In this document: in pieces, positions 48,642 through 59,040 of the stretch
How the letters are laid out: every line of letters begins with the position of its first letter
Position numbering within the stretch: position 1 is the first letter of the stretch
Translations under genes and position numbers: made by a program
Assembly (NCBI RefSeq): GCF_018362975.1
Contig: NZ_CP074371.1
Location: 7,378,001 to 7,442,000 of the forward strand
DNA length: 64,000 nucleotides
Direction of reading: 5' to 3'
Origin: Nocardia tengchongensis
GTDB taxonomy: Bacteria; Actinomycetota; Actinomycetes; Mycobacteriales; Mycobacteriaceae
Notes under the pieces: generated by a model
The model's database searches: none
What the model was told of the DNA's origin: nothing
The model's input: the letters and a program-made list of their open reading frames with translations, nothing else

Positions 48642-49396
48642 TTAGTAGCCGCAGCTGGTCAGCATGCCGCCGTCGACGACGAATTCGCCCCCGGTGCAAT
48701 AGCTCGAGGCGTCGGAGGCCAGGAACAACGCCACCTCGGACACCTCGACCGGCTGACCCCAGCGCGGAATGGGCAATTCGGAGAAGAAGGAGTTGCCGTC
48801 CACCCCGGACGCGCCGCCACGGACGCGGTCATGGGGGTGGCGATGCCGCCGGGATGAATCGAGTTCACCCGGATGCCCGAGTGGCCCAGCTCCCGGGCGG
48901 CCGACTTGGTGAGACCGCGCAGCGCGAACTTGCTCGCGCTGTAGGCGGACAGACCGGCCGCACCGACGAAGCCCTCGACCGAGGACACGTTCACGATGGA
49001 CCCGCCACCGGCGGCGATCAGCGCGGGCGCGGCGGTCTTGATACCGAGGAACGCGCCGGTGACGTTGATGTTCATGATGGTGTTGAACTCGTCCAGGCCC
49101 ATCTCGAGGATGCGCTTGAACCGCAGGATCCCGGCATTGTTGACCAGCACGTCCAGCTTGCCGAACGTCTCGGTGGCGGCGGAAACCGCTGCCTGCCAGT
49201 CGGATTCGCTGGTGATGTCGTGGTGCACGTAGTGGACGGCGTCGCCCAGCTCGGCGGCCAGCGCCTTGCCCTCGTCATCGAGCACGTCACCGAACACGAC
49301 CCGCGCGCCCTCGGCCACGAAACGGCGCACATGCTCCGCTCCCATGCCGCGAGCGCCACCGGTCACCAGTGCCACCTTGCCGTCCAGCTGTCCCAC
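48642..49396 (-). pseudogene. SDR, FabG3 (3-alpha/20-beta-HSD)-like, frameshifted
   Basis: The intact N-terminal two thirds read as a classical [46 protein letters not shown] and [10 protein letters not shown]. The last part is out of frame. Adding one G at about 48817-48818 restores [28 protein letters not shown] and the end [14 protein letters not shown], stopping at 48642 (251 aa). It is the first gene of the leftward unit with kstD and two further SDRs. The close pattern to FabG3 suggests hydroxysteroid oxidation. Confidence 0.82.
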
Positions 49397-50719: not shown

Positions 50720-51471
50720 ATGGCTGATCTGACAGGCAAAGTCGCCCTGATCACCGGTGCCGCTCGCGGCCAGGGCGCGGCCGAGGCCCGCCTGTTCGTC
50801 GAGCGCGGCGCGCAGGTGGTCATCACCGACGTGCTCGAGACCGAGGGCAAGGAACTCGCCGAATCCCTGGGCGAGAACGCGCGTTTCGTGCGCCACGACG
50901 TCACCGACAGTGACAGCTGGGACGCCGCCGTCGCGGTCGCCGTCGACACCTTCGGCAAGCTGGATGTGCTGGTCAACAACGCGGCCATCTACACCATGAA
51001 GCCGATCGCCGAGACCACTCCCGAAGAGCTGGAACGGATTCTGTCGGTCAACCTGGTCGGCGCGTTCCGCGGCATCAAGGCGGTGCTGCCGGCGATGACC
51101 GCCAACGGCGGCGGTTCCATCGTGAACATCTCCTCGCAGTCCGGGCTCGAGGGTCTGATGAACCACTCCGCCTACGGCTCCTCCAAGTGGGGCCTGCGCG
51201 GCCTGTCCAAGGTCGCCGCGCTGGAGCTGGGTCTGTCCCAGATCCGGGTCAACTCGGTCTATCCCGGCCCCATCGCCACCCCGATGGTCCCCTACCTGAC
51301 CACCGGACCCGGCAGCTTCCCGACGCTGCCGCTGGAGCGCACCGGTCTGCCCGAGGAGGTCGCCGAACTGGTCGCCTTCCTCGCCTCCGACGCCTCGGCT
51401 ACATCACCGGCGCCGAAGTGGCGGTCGACGGCGGCCTGGCCGCGGGCAAGTTCATTCCGCGCGGCATGTAG
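50720..51471 (+). pseudogene. SDR (steroid/FabG-type), frameshifted near end
   Basis: Classical SDR to residue about 225: TGAARGQGAAEARLFV, DVLVNNAA, NISSQSGLEGLMNHSAYGSS, YPGPIATPMV. Then the frame slips. Restoring one G at about 51397-51398 gives SGYITGAEVAVDGG and the stop at 51471 (250 aa). In the uncorrected frame the product would run on into the next gene as a false fusion. AAGGAA precedes the ATG. The esterase starts 49 bp after the corrected stop. Confidence 0.82.
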
Positions 51472-51520
51472 CAGCCCCGCGGAACCCGAACCACGACAGC
51501 GCGATCCAGGAAGGCCCGAA

Positions 51521-52474
51521 ATGACCCTGTCCCCCGAATGGCAGACCTTCGTCGACGCTGCCACCGCGGCGTTCCCGGCGCTGGGCACCGAGGTGTTCGA
51601 CGCCGCCGAAGCCCGGGCCTTCCTGGCCGCCCGCAAGGCCGCTCCGGTCGAGCCGATTCCCGTTGCGGGAGTGGAAGACTGGCTGGTGCCCGGCCGGATC
51701 GGCGCACCGGAGGTGCCGGTGCGGGTGTACCGGCCGCTGGACGCCGAAGCCGTTCCGGCCGTGGTGGTCTTCTACCACGGCGGCGGTTTCGTGCTGTGCG
51801 GCTTGGACTCTCACGACCGCTTCTGCCGCACGATGGCCAACGACGCCGGGGTCATCGTGGTGTCGGTCGACTACCGGCGCGCCCCCGACGCGCGCTTTCC
51901 GGCCGCGGCCGACGACGCCTACGCGGTGCTGCGCTGGGTCGCCGACCACGCCGAAGCCCTGGGCGGGGACCCGGATCGGATCGCGGTGGCCGGGGACAGC
52001 GCGGGCGGCAATCTCGCCACCGTCTCCGCCATCACCGCGCGCGACAACGGCGGGCCCGATATCGCCTTCCAGCTGCTCATGTACCCGATGCTGGATCCGG
52101 CCTGCGACCGCCCGTCGCACACCGAGAACGCCGAGGGCTACTTCACCACCGCGGCGCACATCCGCTGGTACTGGGAGCAGTACCTGTTCTCCGACGCCGA
52201 CAAGTCCGACCCCTACGCCAATCCCGCCATCGCCGACCTGACCGGCCTGCCGCCCGCCCACATCGCCACCGCGGAATTCGATCCGCTGCGTGACGAGGGC
52301 GAGGCCTACGGACAGCGGCTGCGCGCGGCCGGGGTGGAGACCGAGATCCACCGCTGGGACGGCACCGTGCACGGGTTCATGTCGATGGCGTTCCATCTGC
52401 CGGAAACCCAGCGCGCCAACGCTTCCGCGTTCTCCGCGCTGCGCCGGGCGCTGTCGCGCACACCCGTCGTCTGA
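51521..52474 (+). CDS. alpha/beta-hydrolase, HSL-type esterase
   Basis: 317 aa with a complete hormone-sensitive-lipase-type set. Oxyanion motif FYHGGGFVLCG, nucleophile in GDSAGGNLATVS, catalytic acid in EFDPLRDEG and His in VHGFMSM. CCAGGAAGG precedes the ATG at 51521. Last gene of the rightward LLM-SDR unit; an ester or lactone of a steroid-like compound is a plausible substrate. Confidence 0.88.
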   Translation: MTLSPEWQTFVDAATAAFPALGTEVFDAAEARAFLAARKAAPVEPIPVAGVEDWLVPGRIGAPEVPVRVYRPLDAEAVPAVVVFYHGGGFVLCGLDSHDRFCRTMANDAGVIVVSVDYRRAPDARFPAAADDAYAVLRWVADHAEALGGDPDRIAVAGDSAGGNLATVSAITARDNGGPDIAFQLLMYPMLDPACDRPSHTENAEGYFTTAAHIRWYWEQYLFSDADKSDPYANPAIADLTGLPPAHIATAEFDPLRDEGEAYGQRLRAAGVETEIHRWDGTVHGFMSMAFHLPETQRANASAFSALRRALSRTPVV

Positions 52475-53950: not shown

Positions 53951-54373
53951 TCACCCGCGCGAGGCCCGCATCGCCGCGATCCGGCCGGTGTCCATGTAGT
54001 CGCGGAACAGCGTGACCAGGCCGTTCTCGACGCGAATCACATTGACCGAGGTGCGCACCCACTGCCGGTCGGAGCCCGGGCGGGTGACGTCGACGTCGAT
54101 CTCGGTGATGAGCAGGCCCGGATCCGCGGTCTCGTGAATGACCGGGCGGATGGCGTGCACCTCGACGCCGGGCATGTTCGACCAGCGCGCGGCCAGGTAG
54201 GCGCGAATCTGCTCGCGGCCCTCGATGCGGGTCGGCTCACCCGGAATCGGGAAGGGGATCTCGAAGACGACATCCGGGGCGAGCAGCGCGGCGAATCGAT
54301 CCGCGTCGCGCGAGGGCAGCACATCGAAGAGCCGGACAACCAGGTCGCGAGGGGTTTCTACAGCAGTGGACAC
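53951..54373 (-). CDS. SnoaL/NTF2-like protein
   Basis: 140 aa. The cone-shaped NTF2-like fold is indicated by DLVVRLFDVLPSRDADRFAALLAPDVVFEIPFP, the core REQIRAYLAARW and the C-terminal VENGLVTLFRDYMDTGRI. Members are polyketide cyclases, isomerases or ligand-binding proteins; no catalytic assignment is possible here. AGGAGG precedes the ATG. It is divergent from the TetR gene at 54458, which may control it. Confidence 0.8.
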   Translation of the reverse strand: MSTAVETPRDLVVRLFDVLPSRDADRFAALLAPDVVFEIPFPIPGEPTRIEGREQIRAYLAARWSNMPGVEVHAIRPVIHETADPGLLITEIDVDVTRPGSDRQWVRTSVNVIRVENGLVTLFRDYMDTGRIAAMRASRG

Positions 54374-54457
54374 GAAAGCCTCCTAAACGGAACGTTGGAC
54401 CCGCTTAATAATCGGGGCGTGCGCCCCGCTTGTCAACGGCTGGGTAGGCTGTCGAAC

Positions 54458-55015
54458 GTGACGGACCGACCCCTGCGCGCCGACGCCCGCCGCAATCGCG
54501 AGCGGGTACTGGCCGCCGCCCAGGAAGCCTTTGCCGCCGAAGGCATCTCGGTGCCACTCGACGAGATCGCGCGACGCGCGGGCGTCGGGGCGGGCACGGT
54601 GTACCGCCACTTCCCCACCAAGGAAGCACTTTTCGAGGCCGCCATCCTGGATCAGGTCGAGAAGATCACCGCGCACGCGCGCGCACTGACCGCGGCCGAG
54701 GATCCCGGCACGGTGTTCTTCGAGTTCCTCGCGATGATGGTGCTCGAGGGCGGGATCAAGCGCGATCTGGCCGACGCGCTGCGCTCCGGCGGCGGTGAAT
54801 ATCCGCGCACGGTGTCCCACGATCTGAAAGCGGCGCTGGGCACGCTGCTGGCCCGCGCCCAGGATGCCGGGGCGGTGCGGCCCGAGATCAGCGTCGACGA
54901 TCTGCTGACCATCATCAAGGGCGTCTTCCTCGCCGTCCACGAGGCCGGAGCCGCACCGGGATTGCGCGAACGCACCTTCGCTGTGATTGCGGATGGATTG
55001 CGCGCGACCCGCTGA
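54458..55015 (+). CDS. TetR-family regulator
   Basis: 185 aa. DNA-binding domain with RRNRERVLAAAQEAFAAEG and IARRAGVGAGTVYRHFPTKE, followed by a helical ligand domain with VDDLLTIIKGVFLAVHEAG. The GTG at 54458 is used because the homologous part begins there. It is divergent from the SnoaL-like gene and lies 144 bp upstream of the CqsA-like gene on the same strand. Control of either is possible. Confidence 0.85.
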   Translation: MTDRPLRADARRNRERVLAAAQEAFAAEGISVPLDEIARRAGVGAGTVYRHFPTKEALFEAAILDQVEKITAHARALTAAEDPGTVFFEFLAMMVLEGGIKRDLADALRSGGGEYPRTVSHDLKAALGTLLARAQDAGAVRPEISVDDLLTIIKGVFLAVHEAGAAPGLRERTFAVIADGLRATR

Positions 55016-55158
55016 CCTGCGACAAGGAGGCGGACAGCGCTGTCTGGCACCCTGTTCGGGACATGCACGGGCCAGTACACATCCTGGCCAATCGCCCAGG
55101 CCCGGTGCTTCCATCGGAAGGCACGCCGAGAAGTAGCCAGCCGATCCAGGAGGCTTTG

Positions 55159-55233
55159 ATGCTCGCGAACCTTCCCCCTCGAATCCGCGCCCGGGCAGAC
55201 CGATTCCACTCCGTCCGTGTGGGCCGGGAATGA
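55159..55233 (+). other. short frame: N-terminal segment of the CqsA-like gene ended by TGA
   Basis: AGGAGG (55148-55153) is followed after 5 bp by ATG and 24 codons, then TGA (55231-55233). The frame is the same as that of the CqsA-like protein, which restarts at ATG 55243. Read through the TGA, this segment (NLPPRIRARADRFHSVRVGR) lines up without gaps with the N-terminal helix of Vibrio CqsA as I recall it (LPDFIQNKIDHY...). It is either a true leader peptide or the first part of a gene interrupted by one nonsense base. Confidence 0.6.
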
Positions 55234-55242
55234 GGCGGCCGG

Positions 55243-56346
55243 ATGATCCTGCACGGCAAGCGCAAATCCTCCGGGGCCATCGAAGTCGACAGCAACGACT
55301 ATCTGGCGCTCACCGGGGACACCCGGATCACCGGAGCCATGCGCGAGGCGCTCGTCAGCGGCGCCACCCTCGCCTCCGGCGTCTTCCTGCACGGCGAGCA
55401 TCCGCAACTCCGGCTCGAGAACGACCTCGCCACCTTCCTCGACGCCCCGGCCGGAGTCCTGTGTCAATCGGGCCTCGAGGCCAATGTCGGCCTGCTCCAG
55501 GCGATCTGCGATGCCGAGACCCCGGTGTACATCGACTATCTGGCCCACATGTCGCTGTGGCAAGGCGCGAAACTCGCCGGAGCTCCGATCCATCCGTTCC
55601 GCCACAACGATGCCGAGCAGTTGCGCGCCCAGGTGGACAAGTACGGGCCCGGCGTCATCGCCGTCGACTCGCTGTACTCCACCAATGGCAGCCGCGCCCC
55701 ACTGGTCGAGCTGTGTGCCGTGGCCGCCGACACCGGCAGCGTCCTGGTCGTGGACGAATCCCACACCCTGGGCATCTACGGACCGGACGGCGCAGGACTG
55801 GTGGTTGAGGAAAACCTCGCCGACCGAGTGCATTTCCGCACCGCAAGCCTGTCCAAAGCCTTCGGCGGGCGCGCCGGATTCATCACCGCACCCGACCGCA
55901 AGTTCGCCGACTACTTCAAGATGGAGTCCTACCCGGCGATCTTCTCCTCCACCCTGCAACCGCACGACATCGCCGGGCCGGCCGCCGCGCTCGCCGTGAT
56001 CCGCGGCGCCGACCAGCGGCGGTCCCGGCTCCGGGAGGTCGGCGCGCGCCTTCGAAACGGGCTGCGGCACATGGGATTCGATCTGGAAGACTCGGTCGGC
56101 CAAATCATCCCGGTGCTCGGCGGACCCGAGCAGCGCACGATGGCCGTGCGCGACCTGCTCGAGGAACACAACGTGTTCGGGTCGGTCTTCTGCGCGCCCG
56201 CCACCTCCCAGGATCGAGCGATCATCCGGCTCTCGCTGCACGCCGCCCTGACCGACGACGATGTCGACCAGATCCTGACCGCTTGCCGAACGGTTCGCGA
56301 CACCCTGGGCGCGCGCCCGCCCGTACGCCTCCGGCGCGCCTCCTGA
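55243..56346 (+). CDS. cqsA: CqsA-like alpha-hydroxyketone autoinducer synthase (PLP, alpha-oxoamine synthase family)
   Basis: 367 aa from this ATG (about 395 if the upstream segment is included). A PLP enzyme that in Vibrio condenses an acyl-CoA with an amino acid or SAM-derived donor to make the CAI-1 signal. Features shared specifically with CqsA rather than with biotin or sphingolipid synthases are QSGLEANVGLLQAIC, VYIDYLAHMSLWQGAK, SYPAIFSSTL and VFGSVFCAPATS. PLP lysine K205 lies in TASLSKAFGG, with D171 and H174 in DESHTLG. A GAGG site 7 bp upstream could restart translation. A TetR gene lies upstream and a solute-binding lipoprotein downstream; no CqsS sensor is seen. Related LqsA/JqsA enzymes are the alternative names. 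Confidence 0.82.
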   Translation: MILHGKRKSSGAIEVDSNDYLALTGDTRITGAMREALVSGATLASGVFLHGEHPQLRLENDLATFLDAPAGVLCQSGLEANVGLLQAICDAETPVYIDYLAHMSLWQGAKLAGAPIHPFRHNDAEQLRAQVDKYGPGVIAVDSLYSTNGSRAPLVELCAVAADTGSVLVVDESHTLGIYGPDGAGLVVEENLADRVHFRTASLSKAFGGRAGFITAPDRKFADYFKMESYPAIFSSTLQPHDIAGPAAALAVIRGADQRRSRLREVGARLRNGLRHMGFDLEDSVGQIIPVLGGPEQRTMAVRDLLEEHNVFGSVFCAPATSQDRAIIRLSLHAALTDDDVDQILTACRTVRDTLGARPPVRLRRAS

Positions 56347-56397
56347 TTCCGCTCGCAGCGGCGAAGCAACGATCGCTGAAATATTGCGGAATTAACT

Positions 56398-56426
56398 GAA
56401 GCATGGGCGAATCGCGCCCATGCTTC
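56398..56426 (+). terminator. terminator after the CqsA-like gene
   Basis: 12-bp stem (56398-56409 with 56415-56426), 5-nt loop and an AATTTCC stretch afterwards; an outer ATTGCGG/CCGCAAT pair lengthens it. It separates the synthase from the lipoprotein gene. Confidence 0.7.
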
Positions 56427-56518
56427 CGCAATTTCCGGGCATTTCCCCGAATCTGATGCTTTGATGCTTCCTGTGCTGAACAATTGCCACCGGAGCTGAT
56501 GACAGGAGATCAGATTCG

Positions 56519-57742
56519 ATGAAGCGTGCGATCCGCGCCGTCGCCCTCACCGCCGGTCTGACATTGGCAGCCTGCGGCAATAGTCCGAAACCCGACGACG
56601 CGCCGCCACCGCCGCCACCGCAGACGCTGACCATCGGCATCAAATTCGACCAACCCGGCCTGTCGGTCAAGGGAATCGACGGCCGGCCGCGCGGCTTCGA
56701 CATCGACATCGCCACCTACATCGCCGGGAAGCTGGGCGTCACCCCCGAACACATCACCTGGCGCGAGGCCCGCTCCGACCAGCGCGAAACCCTGCTGACC
56801 TCCGAGGCCGTCGATTTCATCGTCGCCTCCTACTCCATCACCGCCGCCCGCCAGCAGCTGGTGTCCTTCGCCGGGCCCTACCTGATGGCCGGTCAGGACC
56901 TGCTGGTGCGGCAGAGCGAGCGTGCCATCGACGCACCCGAGGACCTGGACGGGCGTACCGTCTGCACCGCCGAGGGCTCCACCTCCGCCGACAAGATCCG
57001 GCGCAGCTTCGCCCGCTTCGTCAGACTGACCACCCGCGAGACCTACCCGCAGTGCGTCGCCGACCTGATCGCCGGCACCGTCGACGCCGTCACCACCGAC
57101 GACGTCATTCTCGCCGGCTACGCCCACGAACAACCCGGGATGCTGCGCCTGGTCGGGCACCGATTCACCCGCGAACGGTACGGGGTCGGCGTGCGCAAAG
57201 GGGATCTCGAATTGCAGAGTCGCATCACCGCGATCATCCAGACGATGATCGACGACGGCAGCTGGCGGCGCGCATTGGAAGCCCACCTCTTCGCGACCGG
57301 CTACAAGCCGCTACCCGCACCGGTGGTTTTCAACGCCCCCGACAGAACTGTCGAACCCGGCGACCCGGCCACCCTCGATCCCGCATTGGTGAATGCCGCC
57401 AAAGCCGTCGCCGCCACCTCCAATGCCCGTGACTGGGAAGGATTCCGCTCCCTGGTCTGCCCGGAGAACGCCGACGCCATCGACGAAATCGTTTTCCAAT
57501 ACACCCCCCAATACGACCGGAGCCTGGGCGCGGAAATACGCAATGCCGGGTATACCAATACCGTCACCGGCGTCACCCAATCCGATCCGAACTCCGGCAC
57601 CTTCGCATTCCACGAAACCTTCACCAACGTCCCCGAGAAATACCGCGCATACTTCAAGGACATCGATTACACCGGAACGATGGTCCGCCGCGACGGCGCC
57701 TGGAAGCTGTGTGGCCTCACCGCCGACTTCGTCGAACCCTGA
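56519..57742 (+). CDS. amino-acid-type solute-binding lipoprotein with extra C-terminal domain
   Basis: 407 aa. Lipobox LTLAAC with the lipidated Cys at residue 19, then a proline-rich linker and a periplasmic-binding-protein type 3 domain (TLTIGIKFDQPGLSVKG, GFDIDIATYIAGKLGV, LMAGQDLLV) to about residue 265. This is the GlnH/glutamate-type fold. Residues about 280-407 form a second domain with two Cys (LVCPEN and LCGLTADF) resembling the small Mtb12-like secreted domains. There are no ABC permease or ATPase genes beside it, so it is an orphan binding protein. CAGGAGA precedes the ATG. Confidence 0.82.
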   Translation: MKRAIRAVALTAGLTLAACGNSPKPDDAPPPPPPQTLTIGIKFDQPGLSVKGIDGRPRGFDIDIATYIAGKLGVTPEHITWREARSDQRETLLTSEAVDFIVASYSITAARQQLVSFAGPYLMAGQDLLVRQSERAIDAPEDLDGRTVCTAEGSTSADKIRRSFARFVRLTTRETYPQCVADLIAGTVDAVTTDDVILAGYAHEQPGMLRLVGHRFTRERYGVGVRKGDLELQSRITAIIQTMIDDGSWRRALEAHLFATGYKPLPAPVVFNAPDRTVEPGDPATLDPALVNAAKAVAATSNARDWEGFRSLVCPENADAIDEIVFQYTPQYDRSLGAEIRNAGYTNTVTGVTQSDPNSGTFAFHETFTNVPEKYRAYFKDIDYTGTMVRRDGAWKLCGLTADFVEP

Positions 57743-57816: not shown

Positions 57817-59040
57817 ATGTTTCCCGTCGAGCTGCGCGGTACTCGAGCGCAGACGCTCATGTGGGCCCACGAGCACGAAGTCGGAGCGGCCGCGTTGCAG
57901 CAGCTGCGCGACATCTCACAGCTGAAATGGGTGTACGGCGTCCGCGTGATGCCGGACGTGCACCTGGGCAAGGGTGCGACGGTCGGATCGGTCATCGCCA
58001 TGCGGGACGCGGTCGCGCCGGCCGCCGTCGGAGTGGACATCGGGTGCGGCATGGAAGCCGTGCTGACCTCGCTGACCGCGTCCGACCTGCCCGACAACCT
58101 GCACTCGCTGCGATCGCGGATCGAGGCGGCGCTGCCGGTCGGGTTCGCGGCGCACCGCGAACCGGTGGACGTGAACCGGCTGAACGCCGAGGTCTTCGGC
58201 CAGCGCGCCGCGGGCACCACCATGCGGGCCGGCTGGGAGCGATTCTGGAAGGCCTTCGACTCGCTGGATCCGATCGTGCGGCCCCGGGAATCCAAGGCCC
58301 ACAACCAGATGGGAACCCTCGGCGGCGGCAACCACTTCCAGGAACTCTGCGTCGACACCGAGGATCGAGTCTGGATCCTGCTGCACTCCGGGAGCCGCAA
58401 TATCGGCAACGAGATCGCGCAGCGGCACATGGCCGTCGCGCGCACGCTGCCGCACAACCAGGACCTGCCGCATCGCGACCTGTCCGTATTCCTTTCCGGC
58501 ACCCCGGAAATGGACGCCTACCGGCGCGACCTGACCTGGGCCCAGGAATACGCGGCCCGCAACCGGGCCGTCATCCTGGCACTGGTCTGCAAGGCCGTCC
58601 GCGATGAATTCGACGGTTTGGCAGTGCATTTCGACGAGCCCATCTCCTGCCACCACAACTATGTGGCGGAAGAGGTCATCGACGGAATCCCCATGCTGGT
58701 CACCCGCAAGGGCGCGGTCCGAGCGGGCGCGGGCGACCTCGCGCTGATTCCCGGTTCCATGGGGACGCGCTCGTATGTGGTGCGAGGCAAGGGAAATCCG
58801 GCCTCGTTCCAGTCGGCGTCGCACGGCGCGGGGCGGCGGATGAGCCGCAACGCGGCCAAGAAGCAGTTCACGGTGGCCGACCTGGTCGCGCAGACCGAGG
58901 GCGTGGAGTCCCGCAAGGACGCCGGGGTGATCGACGAGATTCCCGCGGCCTACAAGGACATCGACCAGGTCATCGCGGCACAGTCCGACCTGGTGGACGT
59001 CGTCGCCACGCTGCGGCAGGTGCTGTGCGTGAAGGGGTGA
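57817..59040 (+). CDS. rtcB: RtcB-family RNA-splicing ligase
   Basis: 407 aa. The metal-binding and guanylylation motifs are in order: MPDVHLGKGATVGSV, GVDIGCGMEAV, GTLGGGNHFQEL, CHHNYV, LIPGSMGTRSYVV and the active His in SHGAGRRMSRN. RtcB joins 2',3'-cyclic-phosphate and 5'-OH RNA ends in tRNA repair or splicing. The common partners RtcA and archease are not beside it. GAAAGGA precedes the ATG. Converges with a membrane protein 6 bp away. Confidence 0.93.
   Translation: MFPVELRGTRAQTLMWAHEHEVGAAALQQLRDISQLKWVYGVRVMPDVHLGKGATVGSVIAMRDAVAPAAVGVDIGCGMEAVLTSLTASDLPDNLHSLRSRIEAALPVGFAAHREPVDVNRLNAEVFGQRAAGTTMRAGWERFWKAFDSLDPIVRPRESKAHNQMGTLGGGNHFQELCVDTEDRVWILLHSGSRNIGNEIAQRHMAVARTLPHNQDLPHRDLSVFLSGTPEMDAYRRDLTWAQEYAARNRAVILALVCKAVRDEFDGLAVHFDEPISCHHNYVAEEVIDGIPMLVTRKGAVRAGAGDLALIPGSMGTRSYVVRGKGNPASFQSASHGAGRRMSRNAAKKQFTVADLVAQTEGVESRKDAGVIDEIPAAYKDIDQVIAAQSDLVDVVATLRQVLCVKG

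Follow-up and report, generated by a model that had tools for sequence, protein, structure and literature searches.

Does the gene that begins near position 55,159 of this stretch of Nocardia tengchongensis DNA (the window, 64,000 nucleotides from a genome carried on a single contig of 8.0 Mb) belong to the CqsA family of autoinducer synthases, can this copy still make a product, and by what receptor would a resulting signal be perceived? The initial annotation had proposed a 367-aa PLP protein sharing three motifs with Vibrio CqsA (AHMSLWQGAK, SYPAIFSSTL and VFGSVFCAPATS), and both the open reading frame and all three motifs were recovered from the sequence.

The window encodes a real alpha-oxoamine synthase (AOS) of the CqsA/LqsA/JqsA family. 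Analysis with hmmscan gave 465.7 bits for NCBIfam NF005526 (alpha-hydroxyketone-type autoinducer synthase; cut-off 428, E 9.9e-140), compared with 224 for the bioF model (cut-off 426), 208 for the KBL model (glycine C-acetyltransferase, NF005394; cut-off 460) and 204 for the SPT model (NF047599; cut-off 500). Among the 54 solved sequences matched at E <= 0.001, three entries for V. cholerae CqsA came first (about 1e-88; 1.6e-88 for 2wk8), followed by a match at E 4.7e-40. The model of P0001, a 395-aa N. tengchongensis protein with 99% identity over the window's 367 residues (pLDDT 90.8, for this intact relative and not for the window's shortened form), found six V. cholerae CqsA chains as its best PDB matches in Foldseek (3hqt, 2wk9, 2wk7 and 2wk8; E 1.7e-42 to 1.8e-39), with the next match at 1.0e-30. 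In a tree of 65 rows, the 60 family rows were set apart at 100/100 from the five outgroup rows (E. coli BioF, E. coli KBL and three paralogues from the window's own genome), and ten positions that hardly vary among CqsA-family proteins and are not found in these outgroup rows were all retained in the window protein. Of the families proposed for a tree at the outset, its rows cover CqsA, JqsA, BioF and KBL, and for these it bears out the grouping with CqsA and JqsA, apart from BioF and KBL. An ordinary primary metabolism enzyme of the BioF, KBL or serine palmitoyltransferase type, with which the window synthase has the AOS fold, the type of PLP chemistry and an Aminotran_1_2 domain in common, is highly improbable given scores far below the curated cut-offs, the separation from BioF and KBL in the tree and the ten retained family positions. 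NCBI already names proteins of Nocardia, Streptomyces, Herbidospora and Rhodococcus alpha-hydroxyketone-type autoinducer synthase, a name which the initial annotation had overlooked; finding the gene is therefore no discovery as such.

Within the family, the window was placed in a 36-row actinobacterial clade (100/98). A second Nocardia copy (L072) and Tistrella fell outside this clade, and the actinobacterial members as a whole therefore do not form one clade. The Vibrio CqsA proteins (V. cholerae 2wk7, 2wk8 and 3hqt; V. campbellii L075, 45% identity to the window protein) have the fold, the PLP site, most acyl-pocket residues and the NCBIfam equivalog in common with the window synthase; unlike them, the latter has no CqsS alongside or found elsewhere, and its N-terminal frame is broken by a TGA in this assembly. 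The JqsA-type synthases found in Burkholderiales and their relatives (Paraburkholderia, Janthinobacterium and Massilia; L086, L147 and L156) belong to the same family node, with identities to the window protein of 53-54% for the beta-proteobacterial proteins P0091, P0093, P0096 and P0102 and of 45% for Cupriavidus (L076).

The distribution of cqsA is patchy and enriched in Nocardia. The gene was found in 41 of 150 genomes of the genus, in one of them twice (E <= 1e-60), and in 7 of 401 genomes of a family sample (E <= 1e-80), all seven from this same genus, one of 31 genera. A phylum sample searched with a family model at E <= 1e-90 returned 1 of 396 genomes, the window's own, and the genus of G172, which we took as Streptomyces, had the gene in 3 of 392 (E <= 1e-70). 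A protein search gave 1709 matches at E <= 1e-30, and the best 120 of these added members from Rhodococcus, Spirillospora, Herbidospora, Streptomyces, Lentzea and Streptacidiphilus; where these proteins have an NCBI name, it is mostly that of this synthase. The single-contig, Streptomyces-type genome G786 has two equal-scoring cqsA copies in opposite orientation (L188 and L191), one about 4.3 kb from the contig start and the other near the opposite end, as if in terminal inverted repeats.

The span of 55159..56346 originally assigned to the gene stands in part: a 367-aa protein does run to 56346 (Table 1), whereas the span as a whole is not one open frame, because an in-frame TGA at 55231-55233, which had been overlooked, shuts the frame opened at ATG 55159 after 24 codons. 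This ATG lies in the same frame as ATG 55243 and has the better ribosome-binding site of the two. The window's first 24 codons match residues 1-24 of P0001, which has the same database name and is open across the TGA point over its full 395-aa frame, unlike the interrupted window copy. The TGA occupies the position of P0001 W25, a Trp found in all 29 proteins aligned, P0001 among them, and residues 7-24 are helical in the P0001 model. Owing to the TGA, the window cqsA has no uninterrupted frame from the conserved N-terminus in this assembly, and with a stop at codon 25 it is doubtful that an active product is made. A restart at ATG 55243 (codon 29) would give the sole possible product, which would be without the N-terminal helix and would keep the catalytic core; judged from the sequence, the window's copy is probably weak or dead. 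The TGA was considered as a general family trait and this was rejected, since the TGAs flagged in G083, G076, G084 and G086 lie where genes of 371 aa end, the matches running on for 0-15 nt after the gene calls.

Table 1. Features at and around the synthase gene (window positions), with EF-hand genes given in the positions of their own loci.
Feature	Position	Strand	Remark
TetR-family regulator (TetR_N and SbtR-like C-terminal domain)	54134..55015	+	start uncertain, downstream of 54134
DNA absent from collinear site in four relatives (approximate extent)	55017..56366	.	single-gene presence/absence
AGGAGG, ribosome-binding-site-like, 5 nt before ATG 55159	55148..55153	+	read directly
N-terminal 24 codons of CqsA frame, ended by TGA 55231-55233	55159..55233	+	sequence
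GAGG, 7 nt upstream of ATG 55243, possible ribosome-binding site for reinitiation	55232..55235	+	read directly; function inferred
cqsA-type alpha-oxoamine synthase, 367 aa, PLP lysine codon 55855-55857	55243..56346	+	
Inverted repeat between cqsA and SBP gene, 23-nt arms, 83% complementary	56387..56437	.	
SBP_bac_3 solute-binding protein (SBP), lipoprotein-like by N-terminus	56519..57742	+	
RtcB-family protein, adjoins SBP gene with or without cqsA	57817..59040	+	
EF-hand genes	L083:9033-9575, L090:9213-9776, L101:9212-9736, L141:9158-9727, L190:733-1308, L072:8520-9221		

The residues K205, D171, H174 and H102 were retained in the window synthase; from the alignment, we take K205 to be the PLP lysine and D171 and H174 to be the PLP-contacting Asp and His. 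Nine acyl-pocket residues of V. cholerae CqsA are given in PMC3285556, and six of the eight pocket positions that could be aligned with them are identical in the window (F48, I233, F234, C317, P319 and A320); the remaining two differ as L3 for V32 and M227 for F257, which counts against the synthase reading. When the alignment is extended from L3 at V32, the restart Met corresponds to V. cholerae H30, itself one of the listed pocket residues, and the pocket-lining core therefore begins at the restart Met.

As described in two papers, the synthase adjoins its sensor kinase in all organisms with cqsA, jqsA or lqsA then known (PMC3566124), and the synthase and sensor genes, which are usually adjacent, are thought to co-evolve as a cassette (PMC3376566). 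We searched for linked sensors with an iterated profile of the CqsS 6TM domain, seeded with the V. campbellii and Cupriavidus kinases, at two sets of loci. The best 80 of 506 relatives comprised 63 proteobacterial, 16 actinobacterial (7 Nocardia and 9 others) and one myxobacterial (Corallococcus) locus, and the 41 Nocardia loci comprised the window and 40 further stretches; one of 42 matches, on a 3.9-kb contig, was not taken, L074, cut at cqsA by a contig end, was counted, and six of the seven Nocardia loci in the first set repeat genomes of the 41. A CqsS-type sensor was linked at 59 of the 63 proteobacterial loci, and at the other four (L113, L131, L150 and L154) the contig ends 0.1-1.4 kb downstream of the gene. 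Unlike these loci, the JqsA-type ones among them with their linked CqsS/JqsS-type kinase, the actinobacterial loci had none: no linked sensor was detected by the 6TM profile at any of the 41 Nocardia loci (L074 being cut at the gene) or the 9 other actinobacterial loci, nor in Corallococcus. The suspicion that no CqsS/LqsS-type sensor would lie nearby was thus well founded, and a search of the complete genome, as had been recommended, extended it. A full-length CqsS query gave 30 matches at E <= 1e-5, all from query residue 184 on and covering only the kinase-core and receiver regions, and a 15-row sensor profile found nothing in this genome. Across 148 Nocardia genomes the same profile, whose control was positive for five of five records that were all already in the profile, gave one weak partial match (G112, E 0.007, 18.2 bits) in a genome that is not one of the 41 with cqsA; a two-row profile, run without a control, gave none in 148.

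The actinobacterial loci examined are therefore a consistent exception to the adjacency stated in PMC3566124, and they may not be the sole one. A survey that defines homology more loosely than we do gives 362 CqsA homologues in CPR bacteria, 51 of them beside a CqsS-type kinase, and 11 in DPANN (PMC7567580); with 51 of 362 linked, unlinked homologues may exist there too. By term search, neither "CqsA" nor "hydroxyketone" occurs in a review on quorum sensing in Actinobacteria (PMC4748050), and no paper found in the literature was, by its title or the opening of its abstract, about actinobacterial CqsA, which is no proof of absence.

With no CqsS-type sensor beside the synthase, any signal must act via another receptor or on other species. 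The upstream TetR-family regulator had been suggested as such a receptor, and the comparison of related genomes speaks against it. Their gene order is tetR - SBP - rtcB without cqsA, and tetR was found beside the SBP gene with no intervening cqsA in seven genomes (L159-L162 and L164-L166). Homology to L159-L162 breaks off at 54996-55017 and picks up again at 56366-56373, with only 20-60 nt between these points in the relatives, so that the window has about 1.35 kb, carrying no more than cqsA and its leader, which the relatives lack; the difference may be a gain here or a loss there. This extra DNA starts about where tetR ends. Since tetR also flanks the site that has no cqsA, it is a poor receptor candidate, and we rejected it as a specific cognate partner.

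The adjacency of the SBP gene on the other side hints at a functional partnership without proving one. An SBP-type gene adjoins cqsA at 5 of the 41 Nocardia loci and is lacking beside it at 36. Full-length relatives of the window SBP (at least 398 of 407 residues) occurred, among the matches listed, in 15 of 148 Nocardia genomes, five of which have cqsA, with an SBP gene adjacent to it in all five. One of the five, G149, whose tetR-SBP site is without cqsA, has the gene elsewhere, in a 4-nt overlap with a shorter second SBP gene, and the same 4-nt overlap was seen at yet another place in G130. In a tree of the SBPs, four cqsA-linked proteins lay outside a group holding 10 of the 11 unlinked ones, and the window SBP lay inside it; because the window SBP, which belongs to a lineage usually without cqsA, falls within this mostly unlinked group, the cqsA-SBP pairing must have arisen at least twice or been reshuffled. 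At the window itself, 172 nt and the inverted repeat separate the two genes; this spacing, the lineage of the window SBP and the 36 Nocardia loci without such a neighbour all weaken the case for a pair. For the C-terminal part of the window SBP, the Rv0361-like match reached 23.4 bits where the family cut-off is 37. The called neighbours of the SBP gene include neither an ABC permease nor an ATPase gene.

Our preferred reading, to which we assign a probability of about two in three, is that the window holds an orphan member of the CqsA/LqsA/JqsA family whose signal would pass through a receptor not of the CqsS type or to other species, the window's own copy probably being weak or dead. In Vibrio, CqsA condenses SAM with C8- or C10-CoA, and the amino-enone so formed is the precursor of CAI-1 (PMC3285556). 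By analogy with the Vibrio enzymes, an intact copy would use PLP to couple an acyl-CoA of medium chain length, about C8-C10, with either S-adenosylmethionine or 2-aminobutyrate, releasing CoA and CO2, and the resulting amino-enone would, as family and active site suggest, be turned into an alpha-hydroxyketone. Candidate receptors for such a signal would be the SBP protein, a class III adenylate cyclase such as L202 (see below) or receptors of other species. The actinobacteria examined hold a branch of the CqsA signal-making family without its usual sensor partner. Should its intact members produce alpha-hydroxyketones, signalling of this class would reach Gram-positive soil bacteria, and either there is a second type of receptor still to be discovered or neighbouring species are the intended recipients.

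A different light is cast on the clade by homologues without the PLP lysine, which the initial annotation had missed. At the 41 Nocardia loci the position is K in 33, T in five (L037 and L040-L043), G in two (L038 and L039) and A in one (L073, which is also shortened), as compared with K in 107 of the best 120 of 1709 protein matches and in 22 of 22 proteobacterial tree rows. Each of the eight lysine-less genomes has a single match at E <= 1e-60. Seven lysine-less pairs, of which six come from the five-locus Thr lineage and one is a Gly pair, had Nei-Gojobori dN/dS values of 0.108-0.223; the values were 0.107-0.265 in ten pairs that bear the lysine and 0.066-0.258 in 16 comparisons of neighbouring genes. 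The overlap of these ranges indicates that the Thr and Gly proteins are held about as strictly as the rest, and their conservation suggests that synthase chemistry may not be the clade's only role. The eukaryotic SPT subunit LCB1/SPTLC1 is likewise a lysine-less AOS protein. It is conceivable, though on balance unlikely, that the actinobacterial clade is leaving signal synthesis, by loss, for which the stop in the window and the shortened L073 would stand, or by conversion to a non-catalytic binding or regulatory protein, for which the lysine-less lineages, gone from K at 8 of 41 loci, constrained, with no second match in their genomes and with a precedent in LCB1/SPTLC1, would stand. Set against this are the lysine kept at 33 of the 41 loci, the window included, the restriction of its loss to a few lineages and the shortening of L073, which is as expected in plain decay. 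A signal synthase that became a pseudoenzyme would be unusual, and constrained homologues without the lysine would be such a case. At L041 and L043 a convergent histidine kinase gene comes to within 2 nt of the end of the cqsA homologue. The two-component systems flanking the lysine-less loci L037 and L040-L043 were considered as cognate kinases and are unlikely as such, as a homologue of the downstream kinase occurs in 102 of 108 Nocardia genomes (E <= 1e-100); of 30 loci of these homologues examined (L207-L236), cqsA adjoins the kinase gene only at L207 and L208.

The TGA might also be an assembly error, in which case the copy could be intact and active. Two short-chain dehydrogenase (SDR) genes within 10 kb of cqsA look frameshifted (48659-49396, minus strand, and 50720-52474, plus strand), the C-terminal motif continuing in another frame; the second runs into the next gene, and both frameshifts may be real or sequencing-derived. 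That the window's gene is intact and active, with the TGA a sequencing error or bypassed via M29, and that the strain produces a CAI-1-like molecule perceived through a receptor other than CqsS, is a reading that we hold to be rather doubtful. The catalytic residues are kept, a GAGG precedes the restart ATG at a distance of 7 nt, the pocket-lining core starts at the Met equivalent to H30, and the SDR genes suggest sequence errors nearby; against these points, the stop deletes helix 7-24 and the invariant Trp, and the reading frame does not change across the TGA, which is thus not an indel, unlike the SDR defects. On the receptor side, L202 (1097653-1098153 of the same genome) has a class III adenylate cyclase domain and, by simple hydropathy, six hydrophobic stretches in an Rv1625c-like layout. 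In PMC4821796, a mycobacterial cyclase became CAI-1-responsive when CqsS replaced its membrane anchor, so that an anchor of this kind has worked with a receptor put in its place; L202 itself has the standing of a candidate.

In addition to the preferred reading of an orphan synthase, its genomic company was considered across the clade. The orphan actinobacterial clade, the constrained lysine-less Nocardia lineages and the recurrent SBP_bac_3 or EF-hand neighbours look to be new. A broader proposal, which we put forward as speculative and do not expect to hold in full, is that this receptor-less branch was rewired, with an extracellular SBP_bac_3 partner in some Nocardia, a calcium-binding EF-hand partner in Streptomycetaceae and a conserved lysine-less binding or regulatory pseudoenzyme in several Nocardia lineages. 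A gene for an EF-hand protein of about 175-230 aa directly adjoins cqsA at L083, L090, L101, L141, L190 and L072, the identity having been checked by Pfam for L083, L141 and L072. It was missing in 5 of 5 Herbidospora loci, at L188 and L191 and at 40 of the 41 Nocardia loci; L189 lies close to a contig end. The linkage amounts to 4 of the 9 non-Nocardia actinobacterial loci (best 80 of 506), 1 of 4 loci from the genus of G172 and 1 of 41 in Nocardia, and the EF-hand neighbour is thus found mainly in Streptomycetaceae, plus the one Nocardia copy at L072.
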